64,000 nucleotides of DNA from Limnanthes douglasii subsp. nivea (Eukaryota > Streptophyta > Magnoliopsida > Brassicales > Limnanthaceae). Below, in pieces: positions 13,936 to 62,541 of this stretch. The DNA is taken from NCBI GenBank assembly GCA_036936605.1, contig JAUPFV010000004.1, forward strand, positions 185,460,807 to 185,524,806, in the 5' to 3' direction. The translations under genes and the position numbers were made by a program. How positions within the stretch are numbered: the stretch's first letter is position 1; the number at the start of each line of letters is the position of its first letter. The notes under the pieces were generated by a model. The model made no database searches and was not told where the DNA came from. It was given only the letters and a program-made list of their open reading frames with translations.

Positions 13936-16928
13936 TTAGTCTGACATAAGAAAAAAAGGAAAATAAAAGATAGTTAAGACTTTAAGACTGCGCTCCCTTA
14001 GATGTTCCAGCCTCATCTGGTTTCTTTTTGGGGTCTTTCGGTTCTTCATTAGGACTCTCTCCAGTCCCCTCTTCCTCATCGGAGGTATCAACATAATTAC
14101 TAGAATAGTTATGCTTGTCACCATCAGCCATAGTGTGGAATGGGAGGTCTTCGTATTCCACATACTACCATAGATCTCCGAGCGTCCTCTTCGGAAATGT
14201 TCGATGAAAGAGCAAGACCATGTCAGATATGACTTCAACATACCTCTCTTCTTGAGAATCCATCACCTTGTTGGTATATGCATCGATCTTGGCCTGGATT
14301 GTCTTCTCCTACTCCTTTATCAAATCATCTTTCTCGTGGTTGACTCTAGACACATCATCTTCAAGTGAAATTTTGTCACTAGTTAGGGTTTGGATGACAT
14401 TGTCCATGGCCTTCACCTCCTCCTTCGAAGTGGAGAGATCCTTCTCCAAGCCAGAACACTTAGTTTAGAGTTCTTTGTTAACCCCCTCCGAAGTGGCCAG
14501 CCTGGTGGCCAAGTTCTCTTTTCCTTTCTTCAGCTCCTCGATCTCTCTCCTTAATGCCTCAACACTCTAATTGGCGTTAAGAAGATCATTAGATAAGCTT
14601 TCTTTATCGGCGTTGAGTGTGTTGATAAGGGCAGATTGGCTTCGAACTTGCCTCTCTAAGTTGAGCACCGGTTGAATGTTGCTCAACTAGGAGTTGGTCA
14701 CCATGTCATTCTCCCCTGAAACAGAACAAAACTTACCATTGAAAGTAACCATGTTTGAGGAGCTTGGAGGGAGGTAAGGGCCATCAAAGTCGTCTTTCTC
14801 GAGGTCTCCAGAGTAAAGGCCAATGTTTTGAAGACCAGTAATGTCTACTCCATCAATGTTGATATTCCCTCTGGTACCCTCTCCGGTATGTAAATCACTT
14901 GGGATTTGCTCTGCCAGTGTGGGGTCTGTTGGGTCAGCCGGAGGAAGAGACTCCGGCCCCCGGAGAGCTACTCATCCCCCTTGGAGATTTTCTTCTTCTT
15001 GGCTTCCCTATCTCCACAACCAGCTCCCGGTTTTCGATCATTCTTGGGAGCCTTTGAGGGGTTTGGAGGTCCACCTGCCTCTTTGGTACTCTCATCTTCA
15101 ACCACTTGTAGAAGAGCGACATCAATTCCCCTTTGGTCCTGCACTTCCTCGTTTGCTGGGATGATCTCCTCAACACCACCTTGAGCGACCTCAGTTTCAT
15201 GTTGCTTCTTCTTGCCTTTCTTGCCCTTCATCTTAGGCAAGGCGAGCTTCCCATCATTCTCCTCTGTCCTCTGCAGGATGACACCTGGAGGAGGTAGTGT
15301 GGTCAATTCTTCCCAACTCAGGTCTCTCCAGCCGGTTGTGTTCCAGAGGTGGGACCTCACCAAGTTACCAGCAGTAAAGCAATTGTGGAAACGATTTCCC
15401 CATTTGTCAGCAGTCCAAGCATTCAGCTTGGCACAAGTTGTCTGCCTCTCCTCCAAGTAGTCGGAGAACTCCTTCGGCAGCATTACCCAAAGAAAAAGAA
15501 GAGCAATTAAGTAACAGATTTTTTATAAGGAAAAAAAAACAAACATGATGAAATTGTTACCTGTGCTTTCCCATCTGCTGGTGAGCATGCGTGGGTTGAC
15601 ACCAACTTTAATCTTCCTCCCGTTTTCCCAAGCTCCACTTATGAACAAGAATTAGGTCTTCCAATTCTTCTCCGATTCGAGCAAATCATCCACCACCTTA
15701 AAATTGTCACCCATGTTGTAGTGGTAGAAGGATGTGGTTCTTGTAGAGGCTGGCCACAGCAGCAAATTGCTCCATCAGAAGTGGTATTCCGGAGATCCTA
15801 GAGGCCATAATGCAGGCCATGAGGGTGTACCAAGCGTTGGGACTCAGTTGGCTGGGACATAGCTTTATCAGACGAGAGTATCTGACAATCTCTGGGTCTA
15901 GGGGAAATCTGAGCCCCCACTTGAACAGCTCCATGTACATAACTACTTCACTCAACTTGCAGTCTATTGGTGTGTCCGGAGCGACCGGTATCCTCACCTT
16001 GACAGAATCAGGGATCCCCCACTTCGTCCGGATCCGGCCTAACTCAACTGTGTGAGTGTAGACATAGTTAATGTTATGCATAACCAGCAGATACTTTACA
16101 CTCACCTTATGGAAGTAGGGTCCCACTTTGTCTTCCAGGGACTCCGGAAGGTCCAGATGTTTCAAACACAGCTTCTCTTTATCCTTGCCTTTTTTGTCAG
16201 CAGCAGTTTCTCCTATCTGACCGGAGACGTAAGTGAGGTTTCCTCTATGCTGTCTTCTATCACCTCTTCCATCACCGTGGAAGGTTTGTCAGTTGTTGCT
16301 GGTGGGGGAGTGCTGGAGGCAGGCTCTGTAAGTCGTCCGGACTGTTGAGTATCACCCTCACCTAAGGGTATGGTGTCCGACTGGGGCTCGAGTCCGGAGG
16401 GCTCATTTCGAGAGCTAGTTCCAGTACCCTCCGGACCAGAGGATTTATCCTTGGGTACTCTGATAGATGCCCCTGATTTTGTAACTTTGTCCTTGGACCT
16501 AGACTTAGAATGCCCTGATTTCGGAGATTTAGTTTGTGAAACAACAGCTTGGCCCTTCACTAAGCGGCCTGTTCGGCGAAGGGTAACTTTTTCTGGGGAC
16601 TTTTCAGTATCTGACCCCATGGCTATAAATGGAGAAGGTCTCATTGTGCTTGAAACGGCTTTTTCCAGTTCAACAATGGGCTGTGACTCCTGAACCGAGG
16701 AGCCTGATACAATGGGTGAGAGACTTGGTTGAAATAACCTCTTAGGTTTGGAACTTCTAGCAAAAGATGAACCTCGATCACCCTCTGGAGATGGTGTTTC
16801 AGGTTTTTCGTTTGGAGAAACTGGAAGGCCCGTAGCAATGCGCTTTTCTCGCTCAACTCTTTGTGCTTTTTCTAATTCCGAAAGGTTAAGCCACCTGCCT
16901 TTTACAGTGCGTTTCTTGCCGTGAACAT
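13936..16928 (-). pseudogene. Tat-B antisense gene: low-complexity N-terminus, Transposase_28-like region, coiled coil
   Basis: Runs opposite to gag-pol. An ATG at 16928 reads MFTARNAL, the same start as in Tat-C (28338). A basic Ser/Pro/Lys-rich part follows (16213-16644), then 15707-16165 with FKWGLRFPLDPEIVRY and LSPNAWYTLMACI, resembling the Pfam 'putative gypsy type transposon' (Transposase_28) family. After an intron with donor at 15560 (GTAACA; acceptor apparently mutated) 14968-15483 has WGNRFHNCFTAG and a Lys-rich tail. The last part (about 14700-13985) reads as a long heptad-rich coiled coil ending with VEYEDLPFHTMADGD. Many stops. Known Tat-lineage elements carry antisense ORFs, but the function is unknown. 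Confidence 0.65.
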
Positions 16929-17361
16929 AAACTTACACCAAAATAATTTTGAAAAGAGAAGTGAAAACTTTGAGATGAAGAAATGAGAGAGTAATGAAAA
17001 TGGTAAAACAGTGAAAGTAAAGTAATTTATACTGATAAGACAAAACTGTTGCCAAAAACCTAGGAGAATACGAAAAAAAGAGTAATGATTGAAGGCAGCG
17101 CTGACGTCATGGGTATTAAATGAAGAGGTTGCTTATTGGATTAGTGGGAGCGCTGTTCTAGGAGAAAAACGGCTGGTGAGGCAAATCAAAAGATGACACG
17201 TGTCCCACGATTCATAGCAGAACTTTTCAACTTCTGAGAAGTTTTCAGTCCGGATAAATCCTGAGCAGAGTAGTTAAACAGCCCGGAGAATGTTACTAGT
17301 GCCTAAGAAATATTTTTAGGTCTTACCAAAGGCCTTCGACAAAACCTAAAAAAGGGGCTAC

Positions 17362-19760: not shown

Positions 19761-19769
19761 ATATTATAT

Positions 19770-19850
19770 GAGCAAAGCTAAATAGAGATCCCATTTTGCT
19801 ATAATGAGATCTTTTTAAAATGAGACCTATTTTGGCTATAATAAGATCCC
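19770..19850 (+). repeat. MULE-D left terminal region with subterminal motifs
   Basis: Starts GAGCAAAGCTAAAT, matching GGGCAAGGCTAAAT at the left end of MULE-E. It contains GCTATAATGAGATC (19798-19811) and GGCTATAATAAGATCCC (19834-19850), copies of a motif repeated near all ends of this family. Plausible transposase-binding sites, by analogy with the subterminal sites of other MULEs. Confidence 0.7.
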
Positions 19851-20444
19851 AAAATGACCAATTTATCCTTGATATAAAAGTTTCATTTCAGCCTAATTCT
19901 TCTTTTTTCTCTCTTCTCTACCAAAAAAACTCTCAAAATCGGCCCCAAAAAAATTCAACATTTCTCAAATCCGAACTCACAAACACGTCAAGGTATGAAT
20001 CCTATACTTATTGATGTAATTTTTATACATTTTAGTTATGTATGTATTTGTAGTGATATTTAGAATTCTAGTTTTTTTAGAAAAATCGAATTTTCATCTA
20101 AATGTTGTTATTTTTTTTAAAACAAATTGTAGATATGTGTTAGCCTAGTGCTTATCGACCTTTTTGTACCGATTTTGTTGAATTTGGTTGGGTTTTTTTG
20201 GAATTTGGGTTCGATTTGAATCTTAGGGTTCGAGTTACTGTTTGTGCAAGGTCGCGAGCAAGACACACGCGATCCTGCACGATTTTGCACAAACAGCGTT
20301 GGTGAAATTGCGAGATGTCCGTTCTCAATTTCACAAAAATTGACCTCTCTCCATGCACAATTTTATCTGATTTGCCACCTTCTCTTATTTTATTCCCCAA
20401 AATTACTTGCATATTCACGGTGATTTTATTTCTTGTATTTCAGC

Positions 20445-22234
20445 ATGCCTTGCACACAGCATACCCCTGTTCGTATTCAGGACCGGATAGTGATAGCCAG
20501 AATGAAGAGGTTGTTTCACGTTCACGGTCACGGTCACGGTCTGTAAGACGTAGGCCTACAGCTCCCACTCCAGCACCTATTGTATCCCATACGATGGGGA
20601 CGCTAGATCGGTTTATTCGGAAGGTCAATCCGCATGTGCCTGCTATTTACCCAGACTACACAGTGGCGAGGCATATAGCGTCTTTAGAGCAGAGGTAAGT
20701 AATGATTGGTTTAAAGTACGACCTATGGTTTTTATATTATGTATGAGTTATTGATGTTTTCTGTAGGCTCGTCGACTGTCGCGGTGCTACGCGATGTACG
20801 GTACCCATTGTGTATGGGATCTTGCTGGGCAGGACAGGGTAAGATGTCAGGTTATGATGTATTGCTTTGGTCCCCTCACCGATGTCTTGGAGCGTTATAG
20901 TACCAACGTACACCTGGTAGATTCGTTTCTTGAGAGGTGGCATTCGGAGACCAACAACTTTCACTTCTCTTTTGGTGAGATGACGGTGACGTTAGACGAC
21001 GTCCACGCTATTACTGGTCTGCCGGTCACAGGTGATGATTTTGTGATTCAGACATTTCCTAGAATGGACAGCGTTTGGCATGGTATTCTAGGTCATTAGG
21101 TATACCCGAGAATGCACTTAGGACGGAGTTAGCACGTATAGGGGGTAATGCTAGATCTGTTCCTTTATAGTTTTTACGTGAGCAGTACATGCAGCCCCAT
21201 TTTATGGATGATACCATGTCTGATGGTACCGTAGAGTGTGTCACTAGGGGTTATCTGCTCCACATTTTGGGTTGTTGTATTCTGACGAACAAGATGGGGA
21301 ACAATATATCGTTAGATTACTTGCGGTTTGTAGAACATTATAGGACATCCGTTAGATATAACTGGGGCCAGCATATACTAGCTCATCTATATCACCATCT
21401 AGGGAAGTCGTCCATGCACTCCACTTTAGGGATTGCAGGTTTTATTGCCATGTTGGAGACGTGGATATACGATCACTTTCAGCCCTTCTTGAGTACGGTC
21501 TCTCTACGAGCCTTCTATGCCTACTATTTGCCGATATGTACCTTCACCATTTCGTCAGGATGATGAGACTCGTATCAACATCCGGCAGCTACTGGCTTCG
21601 TTGAGGGAGCACCATGTGAGATACGATGATTTTTTACATTTGTTTATTAGTCGTTATTTTATTATTACTTAAAGTTGGTCAAACATTATTAACTTACGGT
21701 GTAGGTTTGGTTCATGCCTTACTACACAATACGCGATCATTTCCCTTTCTGTGATGTGTCTTGGATTTACCACACGCTGAAGGCGTTTGACATATTTGAG
21801 GCGTACTATCCACTTCGGGTTGCTCGGCAGCTTGGGCACATTCAGGATATACCACCGGTTTTGCGGCCTATTTTACCAGTAGATAGGAGGAAGTGTGTCA
21901 ACACACGCTTTCTGTGGGATGAGGCTACATGGAACGCATGGCGGTCGCACGTTGTTGATCGGGGATTCATGGTGACACATATGTTATAGGCGGCCCTAGT
22001 ACGACCTCTTTGTACGACGTATAAATCTGTGACCACATATGGTACACCGTGTTTGATCCTAGTCTGGTTGATCCATCTGGTGCACATGTTGCAAAGACCC
22101 TGAGTGCGATGTCATATCAGACACGACTGTATGACATATGTGATCCTGTGATTGATGGATATTCGAGAGCGGATGAGATGACTTTGGACGAGATGTGTCA
22201 TGAGATGCACGATTGTTTGCTTTTGGCGCACTAG
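20445..22234 (+). pseudogene. MULE-D plant mobile domain (PMD) gene
   Basis: A PMD protein (MAIN/MAIL1-related domain, also common in plant transposons). A 5' leader intron (about 19993-20443, GTATGA...TTTCAG) precedes an ATG at 20445. Exon 1 ends 20694, intron 20695-20766, exon 2 to 21615, intron 21616-21704, exon 3 to the TAG at 22232-22234. Motifs: RSRSRSVRRRPT, VDSFLERWHSETNNFHFSFG, TLDDVHAITGLPVTGDDF, LLHILGCCIL, YNWGQHILAHLYHHLG, EAYYPLRVARQLGH. Defects: lost base near 20474, lost base near 21060, TAG at 21168-21170, and a +1 frame offset near 21500 that MULE-E shares. Inactive. Confidence 0.85.
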
Positions 22235-22404
22235 TACCGCGTGAGTGATTGACTGGATTTGTATTATATGACTACTATGACGATTGTTTGTTACCATCTT
22301 TTGTTTTACTTCGGTTGTTGCTTTCGTTGATTTTTTTTATTTGGAGGATTATTATATGTTTTTATGTTTTTATGTTGTTATGCATAACAACATCAAAGTG
22401 CACA

Positions 22405-22625
22405 AACGGCAACATAAACTTTCAAACATAAGCTGAAACGCAAACTCAAACATTTTTAGAAACACAAACTCTAATAGAAACTCAAACATAAACTCAAATA
22501 TAAAACGAATAAAAAACTCAAACATAAACTCAAACATAAACCGAATCAAAAACTCAAGCATAAACTAAAACATAAACCGAATAAAAAACTCAACCATAAA
22601 ATAAAACACAGGCTAAAACATAGTC
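22405..22625. repeat. Degenerate short tandem repeat downstream of the PMD gene
   Basis: About nine imperfect copies of a ~24-bp unit of the type AACTCAAACATAAACCGAA lie between the convergent PMD and SANT-like genes. MULE-E has a different tandem repeat in the equivalent place (58817-59085). Confidence 0.65.
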
Positions 22626-22673
22626 TGAAACATGAACTTTAACAGAATGATTCACTCGTACCAACATCAGAGT

Positions 22674-23085
22674 TTATCTATCAGGGCAGTTCCATTTCAT
22701 CAACTTCCTTTCTCCGTTCGCATCATGGTAGTCATGTATTTCCTCTAGCCGGATGTCAATAATGTCAGAACGGATCGAATCCAACTGGTCCTCTATTATA
22801 GAATCCGTGACTTGACAGTTGAAGCGGTTACACGCAACACGACGTTCCAATTCGGTGAGGCTAGAAACTGGATGTACACGGAATGTGACTATGACTGACC
22901 ACCTAGCTTTCACCTCATCAATACGCCTTGAAATTCTAGGCGATTGTACACCATCCCTTTCGTATAGGAAATACATCTGGCACAGCAATGCCTCGAAGTA
23001 CCTTTTACCCCCCCTCTACCATGTTCGTGTTACCAACTTCAACTGATGCCCTCATCAGATATTGATCTTCCAACTCAGTCCATGG
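22674..23085 (-). pseudogene. MULE-D small Myb/SANT (trihelix)-like gene
   Basis: Encodes PWTELEDQYLMRASVEV, then YFEALLCQMYFLYERDG, then RRIDEVKARWSVI. The spacing of Trp, Glu-Asp, aromatic and Arg-Trp residues resembles Myb/SANT-like or trihelix DNA-binding proteins such as the accessory proteins of PIF/Harbinger elements (my inference). It shares LC-x-M-Y/F-x2-Y/H with three genes in MULE-E. A run of seven C on the + strand (23008-23014) shifts the frame by one; six would keep it open. Upstream the frame merges with the transposase MULE motif ESAHSSLKWAIAK, so its own start was probably lost in a deletion. Confidence 0.6.
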
Positions 23086-23089
23086 ACAT

Positions 23090-24401
23090 ATTTTTGCAAT
23101 TGCCCACTTGAGGCTCGAGTGAGCACTCTCCGCCATATAACGTAAGATGAAATAATTAGATTTCTAACACTTGATATTAAAAAGTATTGTGTGAAGATGG
23201 AAATATAACTCACCGATTGCTAGTTCGGTTCCCCAAATTTTTAAATTTGTTCGTGTGAATATTGAGAAATTTGTGTCCATAATCGTTAATTCAATGCGTA
23301 CTCGAGAACCATTGGACAAAATGCGTACGTGTGGTGCAATTCGGCAAGGTTTTTGTTATAATGTTCGAGCGTGGCCGAATAGGCAACCCTTTGGTAATAT
23401 TTGACGAACTCATCGGTCATGTCCGAATTCGGTAAAACTTTCTGAGCGTAAGATTTGATTTTCCTACCAATATGCCAATTGCATCGCATATGAGTTGCAT
23501 CCGAAAATATATCATCGATACCATTCATTAAAGCCAACTCCCTATCGGTGACCATAATGTTAGGTAATGAACGCTTGTTATTCGTTAACACCTTCTTTAG
23601 AACGCTCAATCCTCAAATGTAGCTCTCTTGTTTTTCGGAGCTCAAAAAAACAAACGCAACACAATCGTCGAGGTTTGGAGAACTATTTATAGTAAAGGCA
23701 TCTTATACCTTGTAGTCTTATAGCTGCTATCCATTATAAAAACTTGAGGAAAAGTGCACATGAAATCGATGCTTTTAGGATATGCAAAAAACAACTTGAG
23801 GATCTCGTTCGTTGCTTCACAAGTTCGCTCCCAAACATAGCACTCATGTTCTTTTAACTTAGAAAACAAGTATTGCATTTGGATCTTGCCCGCTTTATCA
23901 ACCAAATCATGTTTTTGCCGCATGTTGTATATCGTGCGCATGCTTGATACATTTTTCGGGTCTTTAATCTTTAAACCGCAGTATATCTCTCTTGGTCGAC
24001 AACCGACTTCTGTTTGACTACGAACGAACAACTGTACTTCGACTTTGAGTCTAGCGGCTCATGAGTGACCATCCAAGTGCAAAAATGGTACGTGGTTGTG
24101 TTTCCCGTTTAGCACTATCAATTTCCAATAACCGGGTAGCTCTAAGACCGGACACCCACATTTTTTCGATGAACATTCTCGGCGCTTTTTAACATATCCC
24201 GGTTTGGAGGTTAGGTTTGTAAACCTCGTGCCTCTCGCATCTAAAATATATCCTAGAAGTTTTCATACTTTTGCTACCGTCGTCGTTTTTACTAAGTAGC
24301 ACAATGAATCCTAGTTTTATGCTTTCGGACTCGACCCAATCGATCAAATCGGCTTTGGTGTATAAGGTATCTGTACTAAACACTTGCGTGTAATCGGCCA
24401 T
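23090..24401 (-). pseudogene. MULE-D FAR1/MuDR-type transposase, truncated
   Basis: The ATG at 24401 starts MADYTQVFSTDTLYTKADLIDW, an N-terminal FAR1-like zinc domain (RCERHE; CGCPVLEL). Then VGCRPREIY, SSMRTIYNMRQKHDLV, and the MULE catalytic region FIMDSSYKTTRYKMPLL (first Asp) and IMVTDRELALMNGID (second Asp) with MRCNWHIGRKI. LGNRTSNR ... ESAHSSLKWAI is split by a probable intron from 23213 (GTGAGT). It then ends abruptly into the SANT-like gene, without a SWIM finger or OTU domain. Defects: TAA at 24189-24191 with a frameshift, TGA at 24059-24061, a stop after KMPLL near 23687, and more beyond. Inactive. Confidence 0.82.
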
Positions 24402-24539
24402 CGAACATGGCGGTTGATCCGGTCCCTACAAATGTGATTGATGCAATTATATGAAAACATACTTAATTGTAACCGATCATTTCATTTGCATTCATTAAAA
24501 AATAGCATAATAGGTCAAATTCACGAACAACAAGTCGAC

Positions 24540-24740
24540 TTTTTGGCTAAATTGCGAATACCGAATACGAGTATTTGGCCAAATTTCGCACACCAAGCGC
24601 GTGTATTCGGCCAAATCGCGTACTGGTTGTTCGTCCATTCGGCATATGTACGAACGGACGGTGCCCATGTTTGGCCAAATCGCGAACAAAATGTTCGTCC
24701 ATTTGGTATATTCGCGAACAACCTACTCGCAATTTGGTAT
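24540..24740. repeat. GCGAA/TTCGC palindromic cluster in the transposase leader
   Basis: Repeated blocks such as GGCCAAATCGCGAAC, ATTCGCGAAC, GGCCAAATTTCGC and TTCGTCCATTTGG occur in both orientations upstream of the transposase start (minus, 24401). The same core occurs in the PMD leader introns and at 62500-62640. Confidence 0.6.
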
Positions 24741-25082
24741 ATTTTTTTTCCATCTGCGCGCCCTGGGTTCGCAGTTCGTCCTATTTGTAGCGTTACCAGC
24801 GCTATATTCACACTGAAACTAAAAAAATACGAAAATCACCTCCTCTTGGATTTCCAGACGGTCCGTCAACGGCTCCTCCTCCTCCGACGCAAAATCATCG
24901 ATATTGCTGCTGAAATCTTCATTCCAATCACTCAAATCCATGGTTTTTTTGTGTTTTTAGAATTTTTAGAAAGAAAAAGCTTAAGGAAAAAATAAAAAAA
25001 ATTGATTTTTTGTTACAAATTTGGTCTTTATAAATGAAGGGTAAAATAGAAATTTCACATCGATATTTTTTTCTATAATTTT

Positions 25083-25126
25083 AGAATCTAATTATAACCA
25101 AATAAGATGCCAATATACTCTATCCG
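25083..25126 (-). repeat. MULE-D right terminal inverted repeat
   Basis: Reading inward on the minus strand: CATCTTATTTGGTTATAATT, aligning with the left end at about 15 of 19 positions over the core, directly inside the 9-bp target duplicate 25127-25135. Confidence 0.6.
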
Positions 25127-25428
25127 ATATTATATAGTCTTTCCTGAGATCTAATAGGCTTCTTATTCAAAAGAAACCCTGTTGATAAAATATAACACGT
25201 TTTGCACACACGTTCACATTTGAAGAAGTACACACAAACTCGATGCACAACATTGCACATGTCTTTCAGTCCACAAACCAAAATAACTCAATTCTAAGAA
25301 GCCTACTTTGATTTTGATTCTTAACAACCTTTTTTGTTTTTTATTCTACCCGTCTTTCTATAGTTCATAGATTGGACCGTAAATCCGAACAAATTTATAT
25401 GCTCGGTTGAAGTTGGTATTGAATTGTG

Positions 25429-28337: not shown

Positions 28338-31015
28338 ATGTTCACAGCCAGAAACGCATTGGTGAAAGGAGGTTAGCTGAATTTTTCTGATTTGGAGAAA
28401 TCAAGAAAAGATGCAAGAGACGCAAGAGTTGCAGCTGGTCTCCCTGCCTCTCATGGTGGAGAAATCAATCGACCAAAAACAAACATAGACCAAGGCTCAT
28501 CATCATCAAAGACATCAAAGGTTAGAAAATTACCTTTTGTCCCAACTCTATCTCCCAAAACCCCCTACCTAAAGAAAAGGCCGTTTCCAATGTTAGGAAA
28601 CCTTCACCTTTCCTAGCAATGGGTTCGGATGCTGAGAAATCCATTGAGGAATCCAAGTCTTGCAGAATAACTCGTCAGTCTAAAGCTAAAATTAATCCTA
28701 CTTCTTCAAAAACTGCTAGTTCATAGATAATAAAGCCCCTAGCAGATACTATACCATCCGAACAGCAGTCACACGTAATAGAGGAGACTATGGAGGACAA
28801 TATAGAAGAACTCATTTTGAGACGTCCTGACAGACAGAGAACATTGCAGCAGATCATAAAAGAAAAGTTGAAGTGGGACTGCCCAACACTGAGACACTTT
28901 CGGAGTGCCTGAAAGGGAGACTAGGGCCAAAAGTTTAGAAAGTCAGTGTGAAGTACTTAATTTCCCTCCAAAACATTGTTTATGTGTATACCCATACTAC
29001 TGAGTTGGTTCAGATCCGAACAAAGTGGGGCTTCCCTGAATCTGTTAAACTGAGAATCCCAGTCACTCCAGAGACCCCTATGGACTGCAAGTCCCATTAG
29101 CTAGTAGTATACACTGAAGTGCTGATTTGGGGGCTCCAATTCCTTTTGGATCCAGAGATAGTCAGGTACTTTCACCTGATAAAATTATGTCAGAGCCAGA
29201 TGAGCCCAAATGCATGGTATACTTTTTTAGCCGGTATAATTGCATCAAGATTGTCAAAAATCCCACTACCCATGGAGCAATTTGTTGTTGTGGCGAGTCT
29301 GTGCAAGAACCACCACATCCTCTTTTACAACTATAATATCGGGATCGATTATAAGGTGGTAAATGACTTGTTGGAGTCTGAAAAGCCATGGAGGACCCAA
29401 TTTCTTTTATCAGTTGAGCATGGGAGAACAGGAAGAAGATAAGATCATCTACTAATCCAGGTCAACTAACCAGTCGCTGGAAGAGTTCAAGTAATCTTTA
29501 TTCATGTTTTTCTTAGTTTCTAAATATTGTGTTGTTATTCTGAAACGATGGTTGTGTTTCCTTGTAGTTTTTCAAAGAAGTTTCCGGAGCATTTAAAGGC
29601 AGGCCAAGCCACCTGTGTCAGGCTAAATAAATCGGCATCAGAGAAATGGGGGAATGGTTTCCACAATTGCTTTACTTCTGGAAAATTCTTAAGGTCTCAC
29701 TTATGGAACATTACAGGAAATAGAGACCTTACTTGGGAATAGCTGACCACTCGTCCCTCTGCATATGTCATCTTAAAGAGAACCGAGGCTTAGGATGGCG
29801 AACTTTATTTGCCTTCCCGGGTCAAAGCCCCTAGCCACCTGGATAAGATTAAGAACAACAAGAAGAAGAAAACTAGAGTTAATCCATCTCGACAAGTCAC
29901 AGATGGGGTCAGTTCGAAAAACCAAGGGGGAATCAACGATGCTTTGCTAGAGGTAGTTGAGGTTACAGTCAAAGAATCCGGCAGATTGGGTGATCCACCT
30001 CAAATCATAAGGAAGGATCACAACAGACGCAAGAAGAGCAGCGATGAAAAACTGCAAAGAAAAAGAAAGTTAGCTTGGGGACAGAGATAATCATGCATCC
30101 TTTTGAAGTACATACTCCTATTCCTACTGATCCTACTCTGCAAGAAGAAATCTCACCTAATATTCCTTCTCAAACACTCCTTCCTGCCGAACAGGCAACT
30201 ACTGAAGGAGATGTCAATCTGGATACATTTCAGAGTATGTATTTTAGTTATCTGGACAATGATAACTTCACGAAGCCTTATTCTCATGGCAATACGGCCA
30301 ATGTTGTATCCCATAACAGTGAGACATACATTATATAAAGTGAGAAACATACTCTAGGCTATGCCCTTTTGAATTTATCCATCCGGTAGTTGACTTAGAA
30401 AGGCAAGTGAGGGAACAAACAACGAGCATAACCTCCTTAACCACATAAAATCAAGGATTAAAGAATGATGTCTCCACTACGCAGCAAGGTATAAACTTTG
30501 AAGAAGGAAAAAGAGGACATGGATACCGAACTGCACATTCCGAACTGGAAACCTTTGCCTGTAATGAGATTAAAACTTTAAAGGAGCAACTGGTTGCCAA
30601 TGCTGGTACTGTCACAACTCTATCCGAAGAAAAATCTAATTTGCGAAGGCTTCTTAAGGAGAAGACATATGAGAATATTTGTTTAATAAACAAGCAAGCT
30701 CAGGAGATAGCTGCTGGAATAGAGATGTATGCTACTGGAATAGTGGATTCCTTGGAGAAAAGAGACGATGGGATTAAGTCTGACATGGTTTTGCTATTCC
30801 GTGAGAATTTTCTGAAGAGGACCTTTGGTCCTTTGTGGAAATATGTAGAGTACGAGGATATCCATTTCCATACACTAGCAGATGGTGAGAAGCGTAACTA
30901 CGCAAGCGTAGAAGAATCTGAAGATAATAAAGGAACTGGTGAGAGTTCGAGTGCTGAACTCAAAAGTCCTAAGAAGGGTAAAAGCGATGAAGAAGGCGAA
31001 GGGAAAAGACCCTAA
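28338..31015 (+). pseudogene. Tat-C antisense gene: Transposase_28-like region and coiled coil
   Basis: Counterpart of 13936-16928 in Tat-B, opposite to gag-pol. Starts MFTARNAL at 28338, then a basic Ser/Lys-rich part (to about 28880). The middle (about 28960-29442) reads VKLRIPVTPETPMDC, IWGLQFLLDPEIVRYF and MSPNAWYTFLAGI. An intron at 29491-29567 (GTAATC...TTGTAG) leads to FSKKFPEHL and WGNGFHNCFTSG. A Lys-rich linker and coiled-coil tail follow, ending SDMVLLFRENFLKRTFG and VEYEDIHFHTLADGE. Several stops and frameshifts. Preservation of start, intron and C-terminal block in two diverged elements says the gene was once under selection. Role unknown. Confidence 0.65.
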
Positions 31016-54875: not shown

Positions 54876-56195
54876 GCTTTAACTCAATGGTTAGAGCTAG
54901 AAGAAAAAATATACTCAAAATTAGAACAAGTCAAATAAAAAAATCATAAAAGAATTCTTAAAATCCGGAATAAAATAACCTTTATATTGTGGTTGGCCTT
55001 CAACATGGTGCTGTAAAAATGAGAGTTGTTGTTAGGAAAATTTCATATCGGATCAAAAATTATAACATAATTATTATTAGCAGAAATAATATGTACTTCT
55101 TGATGCAGTTGAGCTTCAATACAAAGGTTAGAGCTACAAAAAGAAGGAAAGTCATTGTTACAACAGTACCATGGCTGACCAAAAACTATTAAATTAATAT
55201 TATTACAGCAACAACGTTAAATTCATCATGCAAAGTATCTTCAACACATAGATTGATGTTTGAAGGTTAAAATTCCAAATATCGACAGTATCACAGCTGA
55301 TAAAAACCATAACAACATAAGTATTAACATTAATATTAACTTTCTCTAATGTATGAGCTTCAAGAAAAAGGGTTGTTTTAAGAAAATTTGTAGTTTGGTT
55401 ATAATCATAGAGTAAAATAAGAAAAAGGGGATGGATGAGTATACATTATAAAAGAATAATGAATACTTAAAATTATGAGCCGTAGGTACAAGACCCTCTA
55501 CATGGAAGATCGATTGTTTATGCAATTTGGGATTCTCTTTCTGATCAACCAGTTGTAGAATTTTTTATTCCATTAGGATGTTATTAGCCCAATCAATATG
55601 GTGTTTAATAGTGGAAGTATATAATATTTTTACGTACTAATGATAATCTTTATAATGGACCTTTTTTAATTTTATTTCTTTAGAAGGTTGGTTACATATA
55701 TAACCAAAATGGAAACCGATAGTTTCATCGTACAAAATGTTAAAGCAGTAAGTTCGTTCGCTTGAACAAAGCAATTAGATGTCACTATTTTCGGATCTAG
55801 GGAATATGTTCAATGAAATAATTTCTAAGATGTATTATTACATCTCTAAGCGATAGGTCCATTTTTTACAAATCAGTGAAATATGTTTACTCAAAACCCT
55901 GATTAGTACCTCTCAAGGGTTAGATCTCGCTTTCTTGGAGAATTTTATCCACAAACACAAAATTTATGGCTCATGGATATTGATCATCATCATTTAGCAA
56001 TTGATTTTACTTTTCTTGTTGCAAGTAGTATGTATATAACCAACTCTAGGATTAAATACAATAAAAAAAATAGAATCATATATTTCTTCAGAAGGACAAT
56101 TATGGCATGTGCATTAGGGTCTTTATATCACAATAAATAAGTCGATTTATTTCCAATTAGGCTTTGTTCTAGCTTTTTTAGGGGTTATTAATTTA
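54876..56195. other. AT-rich spacer with faint ~125-bp tandem units
   Basis: Between about 54980 and 55400, blocks such as GAGCTTCAATACAAAGG, GAAAGTCATTGTTACAAC and CCATGGCTGACCAAAAAC recur with heavy divergence at about 120-130 bp spacing. No gene. The remaining part (55400-56195) shows no recognisable feature. Confidence 0.35.
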
Positions 56196-56221
56196 GGGCA
56201 AGGCTAAATTAAGACCCCATT

Positions 56222-56274
56222 GGCTATAATGAAACCCCTCTATAATGAGACCCCATTTGGCTATAATGAGACCC
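56222..56274 (+). repeat. Three tandem subterminal motifs (CTATAATGAGACCCC)
   Basis: GGCTATAATGAAACCCC (56222-56238), CTATAATGAGACCCC (56240-56254) and GGCTATAATGAGACCC (56259-56274). The same motif marks 19798, 19834, 60329, 60368, 61709 and 61759. Likely protein-binding sites near the element ends (inference). Confidence 0.75.
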
Positions 56275-56436
56275 GAAAAAGACACATTTGCCCCTGATAT
56301 AAAACCCTTATTTTCAGCCTTTTTTCTCTTTTTTCTCTCTTTTCTCTCTTTTCTCTCTTCTCTCTCTCAAACTCACTAAAAATCTCGAAATCAAAACAGC
56401 AAGTTTTCTCAAATCCAACATCACAAACAGCTTAAG

Positions 56437-56975
56437 GTACGAATCCTTTACATATCCATGTAATTTTTATGCATTTTAGTTTAGTATTTTTAGTGATTTT
56501 TAAATTTTAGGGTTCTTCATAAAAAGTCGGATTTTCATGTATATTTAGTTGTTGTTTTTGAAAAATAACTTCAGATTCGTGTTAGTCGATTCAGTAGGAT
56601 CGTTTTGGTACCATGCATGATGAATTTGGATTGGGTTTTGGAGATTTGGGTTCGATTTGGGGATCTAGGGTTGCAGTTTCTGGAAACGCAGATCTGCGAA
56701 CTGGGCCCCCGCAACCCGTGCAAAATTGCGAACTACCCGTTCGCAATTTTGCACGGGATGCGGGGGCCCAGTTCGCAATTTTGCAGTTCCAGCAAATTGC
56801 AAAATTGTGAAATTGCGAACTCCCTGTTCGCAATTTTGGTGAAATTGCAAACGCCCAGTTCGCAATTTCCCAATTTTTAGAATTTTTGATTTTTTTGTTT
56901 TTTTTTGTTTTATGAAATAGTTTGTATCCCCAAATTTATTAATAATTTATATGTTGTATTTCTGCATGCCTTGCA
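56437..56975 (+). promoter_or_regulatory. PMD leader intron containing a long hairpin
   Basis: A donor GTACGAATCC at 56437 lies in a context aligned with the MULE-D donor GTATGAATCC at 19993 (both preceded by TCTCAAATCC and AAG). The acceptor is near 56965-56975. Inside, 56696-56733 and 56739-56776 form a 38-bp inverted repeat with one mismatch and a 5-base loop. Further GCGAA/TTCGC blocks extend to about 56870. Confidence 0.6.
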
Positions 56976-58756
56976 GACAGCAGCAGACACCTGTTCGACA
57001 TTCAGGAGGCTCGAGCGATGATGGAGAGCACGAGGACCGTGTGTCACGGTCACAGTCCGTTAGGCGTAGGCCTAGCGCTTCCACTCCGGCCCCTGTTCTA
57101 TCCCATGGGTTTGGGACGCTCGACCAGTTATTTCGGAGGGTGAACCCTCATGTGCCTGGTCTATACCCAGAGTATACACAGCACGAGGCCTACCACGTCT
57201 TTGCAGGAGAGGTAAGTAATGACGTGTTTTAAAGTACGTTTATATGTTCTTTTGTATTATTTCTAAGTTGTTTATGTTTTATGTAGGCTCGTCGGCACTC
57301 GCGGACCTACTCTATGTACGGTACCCACCGTGCATGGGGTCTTGTTGGGCAGCACAGGGTAAGAGAGCAGGTTATGATGACTTGTTTCGGCCCACTGGTA
57401 GATGTGTTGGAGCGTTGGAGTACCAACGTTCATCTTGTAGATGCTTTTTTGGAGAGGTGGCATTCGGTGACGAACACCTTTCACTTCAGCTTCGGTGAGA
57501 TGACGGTTACGCTAGACGACGTCCACGTCATCACTGGTCTCCCAGTCACAGGTGATGATTTCGTAGTTCAGTCATTTCCTAGTAATGGACAGCGTGTAGC
57601 TTGGTATTCTAGTGCATTAGGGATAGATGTGGATGAGCTTAAGTATGAGTTAGGGCGTAACAGGGGGGTAATGGTAGATCTGTTTGTTTACAGTTTTTAC
57701 GCGAGCAGTACATGGTACCCTGTTATAAGGATGAAAACATGTCTGATAGTGATGTAAAGTGTGCCACTAGGGGTTATCTGCTGCACATGCTGGGTTGTTG
57801 TGTTCTGGTGAACAAGACGGGGAATAATATATCTTTAGATTACCTCCAGTTTGTAGTGCATTATACCTCATCCGTTAGATATAACTGGGGACAGCATATA
57901 CTAGCTCAGCTGTACCACCACCTAGGAAAGTCGTTGCTGCACGCGACTTTAGGGATTGCGGGTTGTACTGCCTTGTTGGAGACGTGGATATACGATCACT
58001 TCTCCACCTGTTTGCCTACGATTAACACGAACTACGACTGTTCTATGCCGATATGTACCGACGCCGTTTCGTGCGGATGATGAGACTCGGATTAACATCC
58101 GACAGGGACTGATTTCGTTGACGGAGAACCATGTGAGTTACAATGATTTGTTATATTTGTTTCCATAGCGTTAATTTATGATTACTTACATTTTTTTTAA
58201 GATTACTAACTAACATATGACACAGGTTTGGTTCATGCCTTACGAGACGCATCGTGCTAATTTCCCTCTCCAGCTTGTGGCTTGGATTGACCACACGCTG
58301 AAGGCGTTCGACGTAGTTGAGGCGTACTATCCGCTTCGGGTGGCTCGACAGCTAGGGCACGTTCTAGACATACCACCGGCGCTACAGACTGTTTTACCAA
58401 CACATAGGCGGAAGCGTATGAACACGCGCTTCTTGTGGGATGAGGGCACGTGGATATCATGGGGGTCACACGTTGTTGACCCGAGGATTCGCGGTGACAG
58501 ATACACTATAGGCGGTCCTGGCACGACCACTTTGTACGATGTATGGATCATTGACCACCTATGGTACGTTCTGCTTGATCCTAGTATTCTTGGTCCATCT
58601 GCTTTACATGTTCCAGAGCCCCCTAGTGCGATGACATATCAGGCACGACTGTATCAGCTTTCCGATCGTGTGACTGATGTTGATTCTAGAGCGGAGTCGA
58701 TGAGTGTGGAGGACTTGCGTCGGGAGGTACACGAGTGTCACCTTTTAGGGATCTAG
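56966..58756 (+). pseudogene. MULE-E plant mobile domain (PMD) gene
   Basis: ATG at 56966 (MPCRQQQTPVRHSGG), a Ser/Arg-rich segment (RVSRSQSVRRRPS), intron 57212-57286 (GTAAGT...TGTAG), intron 58133-58225 (GTGAGT...CACAG) and stop TAG 58754-58756. PMD motifs: VDAFLERWHSVTNTFHFSFG, TLDDVHVITGLPVTGDDF, LLHMLGCCVLVNK, YNWGQHILAQLYHHLG, WFMPYETHRANFPLQL, EAYYPLRVARQLGH, TRFLWDEGTW. A G-run of six (57663-57668; seven would keep the frame) causes a frameshift, and a +1 offset near 58000-58050 is shared with MULE-D. Exons 1 and 3 are open. PMD proteins MAIN and MAIL1 act in gene silencing in Arabidopsis; the transposon versions have no proven role. Confidence 0.85.
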
Positions 58757-58816
58757 GACCGCCAGTTCGATTGAGTTTGAGTGCATCTGTATTATATGAC
58801 TACCAGGACGGTTGTT

Positions 58817-59085
58817 TGATACTACCTTATTTTTTTGCTTTGCTTTAGTTGTTGCTTTAGTTGATATGGTTGTATGGAATTGATTTTGGTTCTTTATTTG
58901 TCGCTTTTGTTCGGATAAGTTGATACTACCTTATTTTTTTGCTTTAGTTTTGCTTAAGTTGTTGCTTTAGTTGATATGGTTGTATGGAATTGATTTTGGT
59001 TCTTTATTTGTCGCTTTTGTTCGGATAAGTTGATACTACCTTATTTTTTTGCTTTAGTTTTGCTTAAGTTGTTGCTTTCGCTTAT
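58817..59085. repeat. Tandem repeat, 104-110 bp unit, about 2.5 copies
   Basis: Units start TGATACTACC at 58817, 58921 and 59031. The second differs from the first mainly by a few inserted bases. Lies between the convergent PMD and SANT-like genes. Confidence 0.9.
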
Positions 59086-59311: not shown

Positions 59312-59698
59312 TTAATACGTTTCAACGGCGCTCGCTATTGCGTCTGCTATTTGTTGCTCTTCCGACTGTGTCGCATACGACACCATCTCCGGCGTGATTG
59401 TACTTTGCGATCCCATGTCGAATACCTTTCGGAGGTTGGTTCGGACTTCCCAAGGAAGTGACTCGATTTGTAAAGTCACTGTTTTAAGGTAAGCTAACCT
59501 TTCGAACACTTCTTTGCGTGTGCGTGGTCGGGGCATCATACATCCTGGGCAGGAAGCCTCCCTACCGTGGTTGAAGAACATTCTGCACAAGACCGCATCG
59601 ATGAAGCCAGGAACCTCCTCTTGCATCGTACCTCTCACGATGTCAAATGCGTTTAGGAGGCTTGCATCTTCGTCTACGTTCCAGCCCGAATCACACAT
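59312..59698 (-). CDS. SANT-like small gene 1 of MULE-E (128 aa)
   Basis: Intact frame from ATG at 59698. The N-terminus GWNVDEDASLLNAFDIV and AVLCRMFFNHGRE align with the other SANT-like genes here (W/F-x-x-D/E-ED, L-x-A, LC-x-M). It has an inserted CPGC-x-RPRTR segment and an acidic/polar C-terminus (SEEQQIADAIASAVETY). Convergent with the PMD gene, in the same place as the MULE-D copy (22674-23085). I call it Myb/SANT-like from residue spacing only. It could alternatively be an unrelated helical protein. Confidence 0.55.
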   Translation of the reverse strand: MCDSGWNVDEDASLLNAFDIVRGTMQEEVPGFIDAVLCRMFFNHGREASCPGCMMPRPRTRKEVFERLAYLKTVTLQIESLPWEVRTNLRKVFDMGSQSTITPEMVSYATQSEEQQIADAIASAVETY

Positions 59699-59699
59699 T

Positions 59700-60328
59700 G
59701 TTATACCTTAAATGTTTAGTTTCTTAGTCTAATTATAGTATTTATAAACTCGAACTGGGTGGTTCAGCTCAAAATTTGTTAGCGGGAAAGGTTGTCTTTG
59801 TTCCCGCTTAAATCTCTTTTAAGCGGGAAACCTTCACTTCATTCCCTCCATATGTTTCCATACAATATTATAATATTCAGATGAACTACTATTTGTTTAG
59901 ATTTTTTTATGTAGTCTTGTTATCCTGCAACCAATAAGTTTTTTTTTATCTATTCTCAAACATGAACTACTCTTTAAATGTAATCACATTGTAGTCCATC
60001 ATCATAATAAATTAACTAATATATGGATAACGAATCCATCATCATAGATTAACTTTTTATTTAATTTGTTTTTATATACTATTTTAAAACAAAAACGTCT
60101 TAGGTTAAAACCCATTAACAATTAAATTAATATTATATCATGCAACCAATAAATTAGGTTGAATCTATGTCTTTTTGTACCACTTTTATGGTTAAGATAA
60201 CGTTATCCAAGTTGACCTATCGATAAACAACACCTGTAAGAATAGGATACCGCAATCCAAACGGACGAATGAGTATGCGACACCTAATATTTAAAAAAGT
60301 ACAATAACTTTGCAGTGCAATAATAGTA
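59700..60328. other. Unassigned AT-rich spacer
   Basis: Contains the presumed promoter side of the SANT-like gene at 59698 and otherwise no recognisable structure up to the nested inverted element. Confidence 0.35.
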
Positions 60329-60492
60329 GGGGTCTCATTATAACAAAACTTCCATCACCAGGTTTTCCGCTATAACGAGACACCTAAAAAAGTTACCGCA
60401 AAAAACATCTGCTTTTAATGTAGTTCCCGCCCAAACAACCACGACCATATAAATAGACGCGAAGCACTATTCGAACAGTAACAATTTAACCA

Positions 60493-60990: not shown

Positions 60991-61188
60991 CACAACTTCA
61001 AACAACAACTAATAAAAAAATCACACCTTAATAATAACAACCAGTAATACGAAAATCACAACTTCAAACAACAACTGATAAGAGAATTGACAACTTCAAA
61101 CAACAAACAGTAATACGAAAATCACAACTTCAAACGACAACTGATAAGAAAATTGACAACTTCAAACAACAACCAGTAATACGTAACA
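60991..61188. repeat. 66-bp tandem repeat, three copies
   Basis: Units start CACAACTTCA at 60991, 61057 and 61123, an exact 66-bp period. Within each unit CAACTTCAAACAACAAC also recurs at half-unit spacing, so the array probably grew from a ~33-bp unit. Lies between the 3' ends of the convergent SANT-like genes. Confidence 0.9.
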
Positions 61189-61580: not shown

Positions 61581-61995
61581 ATGTAAACGTTAACGAGTTT
61601 TATATTTTCGTTCGTGCGGCAGGTTGCAAAAGTGTCGTATTATTTTAGATTTTATGTCCCATTTTATAGGAGGCGAGTCAATTTTGGTGGGCGTTTAATA
61701 TTTGGATAAGGTCTCATTATAGCTCAATTCGTACTATTTCGAACGCAATGTTGTCTTTCGCTATAATGAGACCCTGATTTAAACAACGTGGGTTGTAATA
61801 ATTATCTTCCATATGTGTGTATTTTTGTATATATTATGTGTCACCACATTAGTCGTCCATCCAGATTACGTTATCCTTACATGTCTGACAACGCTATCCT
61901 ACTTTTAAGTAATTTTTAGTCGGTTCATATATCTTATACTTCAAATCACAACTAATAATAATGGTTTAAAAAAATCAGATTAGAAAGAAAAAGAG

Positions 61996-62460
61996 TTTTG
62001 GAGTCGGGAAGGTCACAAAATGTGACCATTTTAGGCTACTTTGATGTAGTTTTTTTTAACTTTTTTGAGTTTTTTTTTCAACAAAATTCGAATCGTTAGG
62101 GCCACTTGACTAATGTTTGATATTGGTAAAAAGAAAAATCAGTTTTGGAGTCGAGAAGGTCACAAAATGTGACCATTTTAGGCTACTTTGATGTCGTTTT
62201 TTTTAACATTTTTGAGTTTTTTTTCCACAAAATTCGAATCATTAGGGCCGCTTGACTAATGTTTGATGTTGGTAAAAAGAAAAATCAGTTTTGGAATCGG
62301 GAAGGTCACCAAATGTGACCATTTTAGGCTACTTTGATGTAGTTTTTTTAACTTTTTTGAGTTTTTTTTCCGACAAAATTCAAATCATTAGGGCCACTTG
62401 ACTAATGTTTGATGTTGGTAAAAAGAAAAATCAGTTTCGGAATCGAGAAGGTCACAAAAT
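61996..62460. repeat. ~146-bp tandem repeat, three full and one partial unit, each with a palindrome
   Basis: Units start TTTTGGAGTCG at 61996, 62143 and 62289, and TTTCGGAATCG at about 62434 (periods 147, 146, 145). Each full unit holds the inverted repeat GGTCAC-AAAAT-GTGACC or a close variant, then a T-rich block with TTTTTGAGTTTTTTTT. Located downstream of the OTU gene. Confidence 0.92.
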
Positions 62461-62541
62461 GTTGAAAAAACAAAATTTACAGAGGGTTTCGCGAACACAG
62501 GTACTTGTAAAACGCCGGATTCGCGAATACAGGCCCATGTA

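Follow-up and report, generated by a model that had tools for sequence, protein, structure and literature searches.

The window, that is, the whole stretch of 64,000 nucleotides analysed here, holds two members of one family of MULE DNA transposons with terminal inverted repeats, a family of high copy number in this plant genome. In our preferred reading, to which we give a probability of about 0.55, MULE-E is a complete and MULE-D a deleted member, and the SANT-like, PMD (plant mobile domain) and OTU products have the roles proposed below. Established directly are the element ends with their 9-bp duplications, the set of genes and its recurrence, selective constraint at the protein level for much of that set, and a 16-bp motif common to the ends and to the SANT2 and SANT3 promoters, whereas the function of the gene set is what we infer from sequence. 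MULE-D comprises the following features.

19761..19769, no strand: left 9-bp target-site duplication of MULE-D (ATATTATAT)
19770..19849, plus strand: left end of MULE-D with two GGCTATAATGAGACCC-like motif copies (19797-19812 and 19834-19849)
20445..22241, plus strand: PMD gene with frameshifts and stops (PF10536; comparison of MULE-D with MULE-E)
22674..23096, minus strand: SANT-like ORF, a SANT4 remnant, frame broken near 23015
23097..23102, no strand: deletion junction, where the flanks in the relative Df45 meet with a 6-bp overlap
23103..24941, minus strand: truncated transposase (PF10551) with broken frames; the deletion removed its C-terminal part together with the OTU tail
25067..25126, minus strand: right end, degenerate and inverted, with a motif-like site at 25084-25099 (4 mismatches)
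25127..25135, no strand: right 9-bp target-site duplication of MULE-D

The preliminary description had placed this element at 19770-25126, and these boundaries proved correct, as the direct repeats (19761-19769 and 25127-25135) are exact and enclose inverted ends. Read inward from the repeats, the ends are identical at 26 of 45 positions in ungapped register, a match equalled by 17 of 200,000 random local pairs. No other pair among the 5180 identical 9-mer pairs lying 2-10 kb apart in the window, single-letter runs omitted, has inner flanks that alike. Free local alignment of the two ends scored 37, with the best shuffle at 38 and thus no excess over shuffles; the evidence for the ends is therefore the register, together with the match of the left end to that of MULE-E (alignment score 100, best shuffle 31).

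The three genes of MULE-D were said to read from the left (PMD) and from the right (SANT-like gene and transposase). These orientations stand, with PF10536 matching on the plus strand and PF10551 (MULE) on the minus strand (4e-06, bits equal to the cut-off), but frameshifts or stop codons interrupt all three genes. The transposase shares 54-84% amino-acid identity, piece by piece, with that of MULE-E, and the SANT-like ORF is homologous to ORFs in MULE-E and closest in kind to SANT4 (80% amino-acid identity to the copy in Df45, 70% to that in c11). The idea that it is a gene of its own had to be given up: about 3.7 kb of Df45 is absent from MULE-D where the transposase jumps into the SANT sequence, and this deletion has fused the two. 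Df45 and the initial alignment blocks of a further 39 transposase copies locate the junction, and it rules out a separate gene starting from an ATG near 23138. Judged from these alignments, MULE-D is an internally deleted derivative within the MULE family.

MULE-E forms one complete element of 10,183 bp. Its right end and right 9-bp duplication lie 2.4 kb past the window's end, in L039, the 10 kb that directly follow the window.

56187..56195, no strand: left 9-bp duplication of MULE-E (ATTAATTTA; right copy at L039:2379-2387)
56196..56300, plus strand: left end of MULE-E, in which the motif occurs four times (at 56202, 56222, 56238 and 56259)
56966..58756, plus strand: PMD gene (PF10536)
59315..59698, minus strand: SANT1, a SANT-like gene
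60330..60383, no strand: promoter of SANT2, two motif copies in inverted orientation 110-163 nt upstream of the start codon
60493..60868, plus strand: SANT2, frame broken in MULE-E after 87 aa
61209..61580, minus strand: SANT3, an open ORF
61709..61774, no strand: promoter of SANT3, two motif copies in inverted orientation 129-194 nt upstream of the start codon
62871..64000, minus strand: OTU-like C-terminal part of the transposase; the gene continues beyond the window

The PMD, SANT and transposase combination had been reported to recur in MULE-E. The full set is indeed there, but the window ends inside the element and does not by itself reveal this; L039 supplies the transposase, with MULE and FAR1 matches at L039:463-1623, and the right end, which closes the element at L039:2378. 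The PF10551 match reaches 9.6e-28 in MULE-E and 2.3e-27 in copy c11, and the MULE-E transposase has its own FAR1-type region. In the resulting layout, PMD reads from the left, the FAR1/MULE transposase with its OTU-like tail reads from the right, and up to four SANT-like genes, related to one another, lie between them. Instead of the single SANT-like gene first proposed, MULE-E has three, and that of MULE-D belongs to SANT4, found in c11 and Df45. PMD and transposase are separate, convergent genes on opposite strands, in MULE-D, MULE-E and other copies, without fusion of the two.

Exact 9-bp duplications together with both ends were found in four copies, MULE-D, MULE-E, c12 and c18. The full set of PMD, SANT and transposase/OTU genes, whose consistent presence the preliminary description had proposed as a check, is present in three of them, the fourth being the deleted MULE-D; the duplication was not recovered for c10, Df45 and Df48. 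SANT1 adjoins PMD in 26 of 30 PMD loci, MULE-E included, loci that were chosen by PMD, which is thus present by construction. In the sample of 40 chosen by SANT1, PMD was found in all 20 copies resolved (17 from coordinate lists and 3 of 3 fetched). There are exceptions: L019 and L029 gave no SANT-like match within the 1.5 kb examined, L010/c10 and L027 have only a paralogous SANT-like match, and Df45 and Df48 are without SANT1. All 40 copies scored for PMD, and chosen for it, are 88-100% identical to the MULE-E PMD. The scored copies are the best 40 of 2386, 1771 and 5421 first-look candidates and, for SANT3, the best 150 of 10,178, and genome-wide proportions are not derivable from these samples.

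SANT1 is an open ORF in 19 of the 30 loci, with 147 aa in 12 of those, and SANT2 is open in L059, with 125 aa from the ATG. Among the best 150 of the SANT3 candidates, every match has at least 89% identity and 130 have no internal stop. Residues 1-70 of SANT3 are predicted by modelling to adopt a three-helix arrangement of the Myb/SANT type. Foldseek with SANT3 returned nothing below E 0.001, and none of SANT1-4 rose above the cut-off of the Myb/SANT Pfam profile (best PF00249, E 0.28, for SANT3). A protein database search found no match for SANT1, for four SANT-like sequences or for one PMD exon used as a control. Since PMD reportedly occurs throughout the angiosperms (PMC5418596), this database seems to be blind to plants, and the result for the SANT-like sequences says nothing on their novelty.

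Thirty-nine SANT3 copies share one identical score, and PMD or SANT1 matches lie near two of them; SANT-bearing copies without PMD may occur among the remaining 37. In L059, one of the 39, a Gypsy-like repeat stops right beside SANT1. A Gypsy element was considered as the carrier of these copies and rejected, as the Gypsy-MULE junction was found at one place only among 40 scored. The repeat part recurs 10 kb to the left, and L059 looks like a Gypsy insertion into that MULE copy.

When the two sub-families are compared, constraint on the first part of PMD and on SANT2, SANT3 and OTU equals or exceeds that on the transposase, whereas the last PMD exon falls short of it; the value for PMD3 within the family is 0.71. 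OTU deubiquitinases have the motif DGNC with a downstream His. In the OTU-like tail, the Cys is present in six of eight copies (DGNC in five, DDNC in c11) and lost in Df45 and Df48, and the His motif is kept in all eight. The OTU-like part has no Pfam match, its PDB match to OTUD5 has an E of 0.035, and the AlphaFold model of this part alone, with a pLDDT of 42, is too poor for use.

Beyond the element ends, the 16-bp motif GGCTATAATGAGACCC is found again in the promoters of SANT2 and SANT3, each time as an inverted pair. At SANT3, the pair forms a 64-bp arrangement with a 36-bp spacer in seven of seven copies examined. By eye, the promoter pairs lie upstream of TATA-like boxes. The gene set might work as follows. 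The transposase would cut and paste the element, and the small SANT-like proteins, as sequence-specific partners, would bind the motif both in the two element ends and in the promoters of their own genes, thereby feeding back on their own expression. They would either help the transposase onto the element or maintain its accessibility for transcription, a role that could be likened to that of VANC in VANDALs and of the Myb-like proteins in PIF/Harbinger. The target of the PMD protein would be the host silencing complex of the MAIN/MAIL1 type, whose action it would disturb, and the OTU part would deubiquitinate the transposase or chromatin. A multi-component transposition or anti-silencing system had been suggested for this gene combination; the multi-gene element is real (MULE-E, c12 and c18), but the joint working of its products we only infer.

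The SANT-like proteins might instead be co-factors of transposition alone, binding the ends and recruiting the transposase with no part in silencing, which we consider somewhat unlikely. The motif copies in MULE-E, c12, c18 and c10, which form tandem arrays in the left ends and number two in the right ends, would suit such co-factors, as would the predicted Myb/SANT-type fold of SANT3 and the two element-encoded proteins described as required for PIF/Harbinger mobilisation (PMC2836001). However, the FAR1-type region is already present in the MULE-E transposase, four paralogues exceed a loader's need, and the motif in the SANT2 and SANT3 promoters would be unneeded for transposition. These promoter copies could also mean that the motif serves only as a promoter element or as a binding site for the transposase, taken by the SANT2 and SANT3 promoters from the ends, while the SANT proteins bind elsewhere. 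MULE ends are said to hold the transposase promoter (PMC6446971), and the position of the motif pairs relative to the TATA-like boxes agrees with this. We nevertheless regard this explanation as unlikely, because only 13-28 nt are common to ends and promoters, with no whole end copied, and the inverted pairs with their fixed spacer at SANT3 suit a dimeric binding protein.

Capture of host gene pieces is described as common in MULEs (PMC6446971, PMC4583175), and PMD and SANT might be passengers of the Pack-MULE type, useless to the element, as the broken genes of MULE-D, the partly broken ones of MULE-E and the PMD3 value could suggest. This is very unlikely and already disfavoured: the genes are whole rather than fragments and are kept in two sub-families, most parts are about as constrained as the transposase, and SANT1 is open in most of the PMD loci. 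That MULE-E consists of several elements nested in one another instead of a single one, with SANT2-SANT3 flanked by end-like motifs of their own at the two promoter pairs, we find scarcely credible. One 9-bp duplication encloses all genes in MULE-E, c12 and c18, so they are not separate nested elements, the case that the preliminary description had named as a refutation. Moreover, the gene order is the same in other copies, and 60231-60345 and 61701-61900 share no exact 8-11 bp repeat except the motif itself. Beyond our preferred reading, of a MULE family with SANT, PMD and OTU roles as proposed, a bolder and quite improbable step would be that plant MULEs have evolved sequence-specific anti-silencing a second time, independently, in a system in which up to four SANT-like proteins would read the motif in ends and own promoters, the element-borne PMD would poison the MAIN/MAIL1 pathway and OTU would strip ubiquitin from chromatin or transposase. 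With its high copy number, SANT frames open in many copies and a short motif, the family offers a test case in which one could ask whether PMD and DNA-binding proteins encoded by a transposon relieve silencing sequence-specifically, like VANC, with a different set of proteins.

The second protein of PIF/Harbinger and Ping is Myb-like, and neither PMD nor OTU is known in PIF/Harbinger. A small second protein beside the transposase is common to PIF/Harbinger (PMC2836001) and the present family, whereas the transposase of the former is of another family and its duplication is 3 bp rather than 9 bp (PMC2213677). The MULE class features, PF10551, terminal inverted repeats and the 9-bp duplication (MULE-D, MULE-E, c12 and c18), are all present here, the last an exact 9 bp where 8-11 bp is used as a MULE criterion. 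PMD proteins help plants to silence transposons, and MULE-borne PMD has been proposed as an anti-silencing tool (PMC5418596, PMC8616336). Antisense PMD in MULEs (PMC6446971) and this anti-silencing idea (PMC5418596) are already published; SANT-like genes in a PMD MULE had no report in the literature searched, Repbase, supplements and subscription papers lying outside its scope. MUDR, MDR and MUDRAVI2 of Dupeyron 2019 have mostly a 9-bp duplication, inverted ends and PMD often on the opposite strand, as here, and MULE-Solanaceae_1 similarly has an antisense PMD with an "unknown ORF" but is listed without inverted ends (PMC6446971). In contrast to the present family, the available Table 1 rows of that source name no SANT/Myb-like gene, and they give OTU ("Ovarian Tumour Gene") only for a cnidarian element and plant FAR1 in the Jittery group and group 35 rather than in plant PMD groups (PMC6446971). 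The MULE-captured PMD-C of Ikeda 2017 likewise combines a MULE with PMD and a proposed anti-silencing use, but there PMD and transposase form a fusion, described from Amborella and a number of grasses, instead of separate convergent genes (PMC5418596).

VANDAL21 (VANA, VANB and VANC; Hosaka 2017) resembles our family in having several genes in a MULE and a family-specific short motif arrayed in noncoding parts (PMC5735166, PMC6446971), and half of the VANDAL group has PMD and/or DUF according to Table 1 (PMC6446971). The likeness is one of arrangement, not of the VANDAL motif itself. DUF1985 and DUF287 had no Pfam match in the scanned PMD, SANT and transposase pieces. VANC, with DUF1985 and DUF287, is associated with the motif YAGTATTAY (PMC5735166), in contrast to the small SANT-like proteins and the different motif found here. 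VANDALs are described with no inverted ends or short degenerate ones, whereas in the present family the motif lies within inverted ends.

The window (G000:C334:185460807-185524806 in the 1.78 Gb genome) carries many reverse-transcriptase and Gypsy-type remains and two related MULEs, with the following features:

19761-19769 and 25127-25135: exact 9-bp repeat ATATTATAT enclosing MULE-D (19770-25126)
22674-23096, minus strand: SANT-like ORF of MULE-D, SANT4 type
56196 to beyond the window end: MULE-E, with the gene order PMD (+), SANT1 (-), SANT2 (+), SANT3 (-), transposase (-)

The exact 9-bp repeat claimed for MULE-D in the preliminary description was borne out. The repeat is composed of A/T only and was therefore tested together with its flanking bases: among 5180 pairs of identical 9-mers lying 2-10 kb apart in the window (single-letter runs excluded), the MULE-D pair alone reached at least 26 matching positions between its inner 45-base flanks. 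When its two ends were aligned locally without constraint, the score was 37, not above shuffles (38). The left ends of MULE-D and MULE-E scored 100 versus 31 for shuffles, with the match beginning at the element's third base. The claimed gene directions also held, with PMD on the plus strand (PF10536, 7.1e-16 and 2.4e-18, and a further match of 4.7e-06 under the cut-off) and the MULE transposase on the minus strand; the reading frames of the MULE-D genes are broken. Gypsy-type extra ORFs lie close by at 15707-16932 (-) and 29101-29442 (+), with one weak Transposase_28 match.

The window ends inside MULE-E, and the right end was found in the next 10 kb, which contain ATTAATTTA, identical to the 9 bp at 56187-56195; the element is 10,183 bp long. 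Its transposase has a FAR1-type start (3.7e-6, 28.0 bits against a cut-off of 28.1) and a MULE domain (9.6e-28), and terminates in a tail that we take to be OTU-like from DGNC and a downstream His motif. Before this tail lies a presumably SWIM-like part, recognized by eye and assigned to no Pfam family. The tail matched OTUD5 weakly (E 0.035) and nothing in Pfam; its Cys is retained in six of eight copies (DGNC in five) and gone from both D-type copies. A stop separates the two parts in MULE-E and the D-type copy Df45. The frame is open between them in the other D-type copy, Df48, and in copies c10, c11, c12 and c18, continuing over 365 codons in c11.

The SANT ORF of MULE-D showed no Myb/SANT match in Pfam. 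In single-pair comparisons it is homologous to SANT3 (2.5e-7), SANT2 (8.4e-7) and, only at 0.010, SANT1 of MULE-E, whose paralogues match among themselves (SANT1 and SANT3, 2.8e-10; SANT2 and SANT3, 1.4e-36). Its nearest relatives are SANT4 genes elsewhere, with amino-acid identities of 80% (Df45) and 70% (c11). When the genome was searched with the right half of MULE-D, the first block of each of the 39 other copies scored began at 23097 or 23098, and no row among the matches listed covered the SANT stretch. MULE-D is an internal-deletion derivative because the two main blocks shared with Df45 (87% and 89% identical) meet in MULE-D with a 6-bp overlap, whereas about 3.7 kb lies between them in Df45. 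The adjacency of SANT and transposase in MULE-D is the scar of this deletion.

Apart from MULE-D, seven copies were examined in full or nearly so. A check for the gene set in copies with 9-bp duplications found the whole set, both ends and exact duplications in MULE-E, c12 and c18 (9.3-10.2 kb). The c11 copy, read without its right end, has the set plus SANT4, and c10 is without SANT1 and most of SANT2. Df45 carries PMD, SANT4, SANT3, OTU and transposase, and Df48 carries PMD, SANT2, SANT3, OTU and transposase; no 9-bp duplication was recovered for c10, Df45 or Df48.

With the PMD DNA of MULE-E as query, 40 of 2386 first-look candidates were scored (88-100% identical), and among the matches listed 38 covered 1836 or more of the 1920 query bases. 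Within the 1.5 kb after PMD in 30 fetched PMD-chosen loci, MULE-E included, 26 had a SANT1 match of at least 82%, two (L010, L027) a weak paralogous SANT match alone and two (L019, L029) no SANT match; the SANT1 ORF is open in 19 of the 30. Conversely, PMD lay beside SANT1 in 17 of 40 scored SANT1 copies (of 1771 candidates; 97-100% identical) by coordinates among the matches listed, and in all three fetched from the other 23. With the SANT3 protein, 150 of 10,178 candidates were scored (at least 89% identical), and 130 had no internal stop, stop-bearing rows being picked by eye. A SANT3 match lay within 8 kb of 23/40 PMD and 26/40 SANT1 copies among the matches listed. Thirty-nine of the 150 share one score and identity (95%; e.g. 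G000:C441:20361989-20362360), as would be expected if one sub-family had recently undergone a burst (PMD status settled for 2 of 39).

About 100 of 121 PMD rows are near-equal matches with at least one stop (e.g. G000:C223:22082381-22083478); three of these rows have a SANT1 or SANT3 match no more than 8 kb away and are probably MULE copies. Four full-length open PMD matches (L001-L004) look like host genes. In one MULE copy (L059), flanked by DNA related to the Gypsy-type extra ORFs near MULE-D, the end of a Gypsy-type repeat (L059:1-2986) adjoins SANT1; this looks like a Gypsy insertion, because the repeat is present again 10 kb to the left. The PMD frame of MULE-E shifts at 57653-57690 across a 26-nt GT...AG stretch, GTAATGGTAGATCTGTTTGTTTACAG, at a G run. 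The GTAAT...AG pattern with 26 nt occurs in 32/36 listed PMD copies, c10, Df45, Df48 and L031 have a near-identical stretch, and L014 has additional bases preceding it; it could be an intron of unusually small size or else a frame change shared by the copies. Every convergent 3'-3' gap holds a tandem array, with dissimilar units:

22401-22640: PMD/SANT gap of MULE-D, 12-bp unit
58816-59078: PMD/SANT1 gap of MULE-E, 110-bp unit
60991-61183: SANT2/SANT3 gap of MULE-E, ~32-66-bp unit

Within MULE-E, another array (61984-62462; 146-bp unit, 3.3 copies) separates SANT3 from the transposase-OTU gene.

Between MULE-D and MULE-E, dN/dS for PMD was 0.51 (bootstrap 0.40-0.67) against a mean of 0.91 in neutral simulations with the observed, context-dependent mutation spectrum, and for SANT2 versus SANT3 it was 0.26 against 0.83, with 0/300 simulations as low in either case. 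The PMD rate is uneven (piece 2a, 0.24; piece 3b, 1.22). Divergence at its non-synonymous sites (0.185) is similar to that in the leader and introns (15-19%), and constraint is therefore visible only against synonymous sites.

dN/dS, E-type versus D-type; within families (pairs non-independent)
PMD2a: 0.27; 0.37
PMD3: 0.62; 0.71
SANT1: within families 0.53
SANT2 (n=6): 0.31; 0.43
SANT3 (n=8): 0.27; 0.68
SANT4 (n=3): 0.54; 0.52
Transposase (n=8): 0.51; 0.55
OTU (n=8): 0.27; 0.35

By the E-type versus D-type ratios, the first part of PMD, SANT2, SANT3 and OTU were constrained over the longer span at least as strongly as the transposase; PMD exon 3 was less strictly conserved than it.

With up to three mismatches allowed, the 16-bp motif GGCTATAATGAGACCC occurs 10 times in the window, always within MULE-D or MULE-E, versus 0.33 expected (0/100 shuffles attained 10). 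The consensus was derived from the element ends, and the independent result is therefore the four inner sites only. They are arranged as inverted pairs, one 110-163 nt upstream of SANT2 and the other 129-194 nt upstream of SANT3. Both pairs recur in c11, c12 and Df48, and the SANT3 pair only in c18, c10 and Df45, the SANT2 pair having been lost from c18. In c11, the SANT2 pair lies within the divergent SANT4/SANT2 gap, ~210 nt from the SANT4 ATG. The SANT3 pair spans 64 bp including a 36-bp spacer in 7/7 copies; the remainder of this promoter is conserved as well, and conservation alone therefore fails to single out the motif. No motif site was found in front of SANT1 (MULE-E) or SANT4 (Df45).

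We read this MULE as an element that carries a regulatory kit of its own. Judging from the motif positions, the SANT proteins might bind the sequence common to the ends and the SANT promoters; the roles of PMD and OTU are likewise putative. In the parts of the literature that we consulted, we found no mention of the SANT-like gene family, of its promoter motif or of the PMD, SANT and transposase set within one 9-bp duplication. Antisense PMD in MULEs is already known, many being given in Table 1 of PMC6446971, and MULE-D and MULE-E likewise have PMD on the plus and transposase on the minus strand. In the parts of the sources consulted, PMD is described as occurring in angiosperms only (PMC8616336), which points to a plant as the source of the window, and an anti-silencing function has already been proposed for TE-borne PMD (PMC5418596, PMC8616336). 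The corresponding parts of two further sources report that in VANDAL21 silencing can be relieved by a MULE protein that recognizes a short motif (PMC5735166), and that in PIF/Harbinger transposition can depend on a second protein encoded by the element (PMC2836001).
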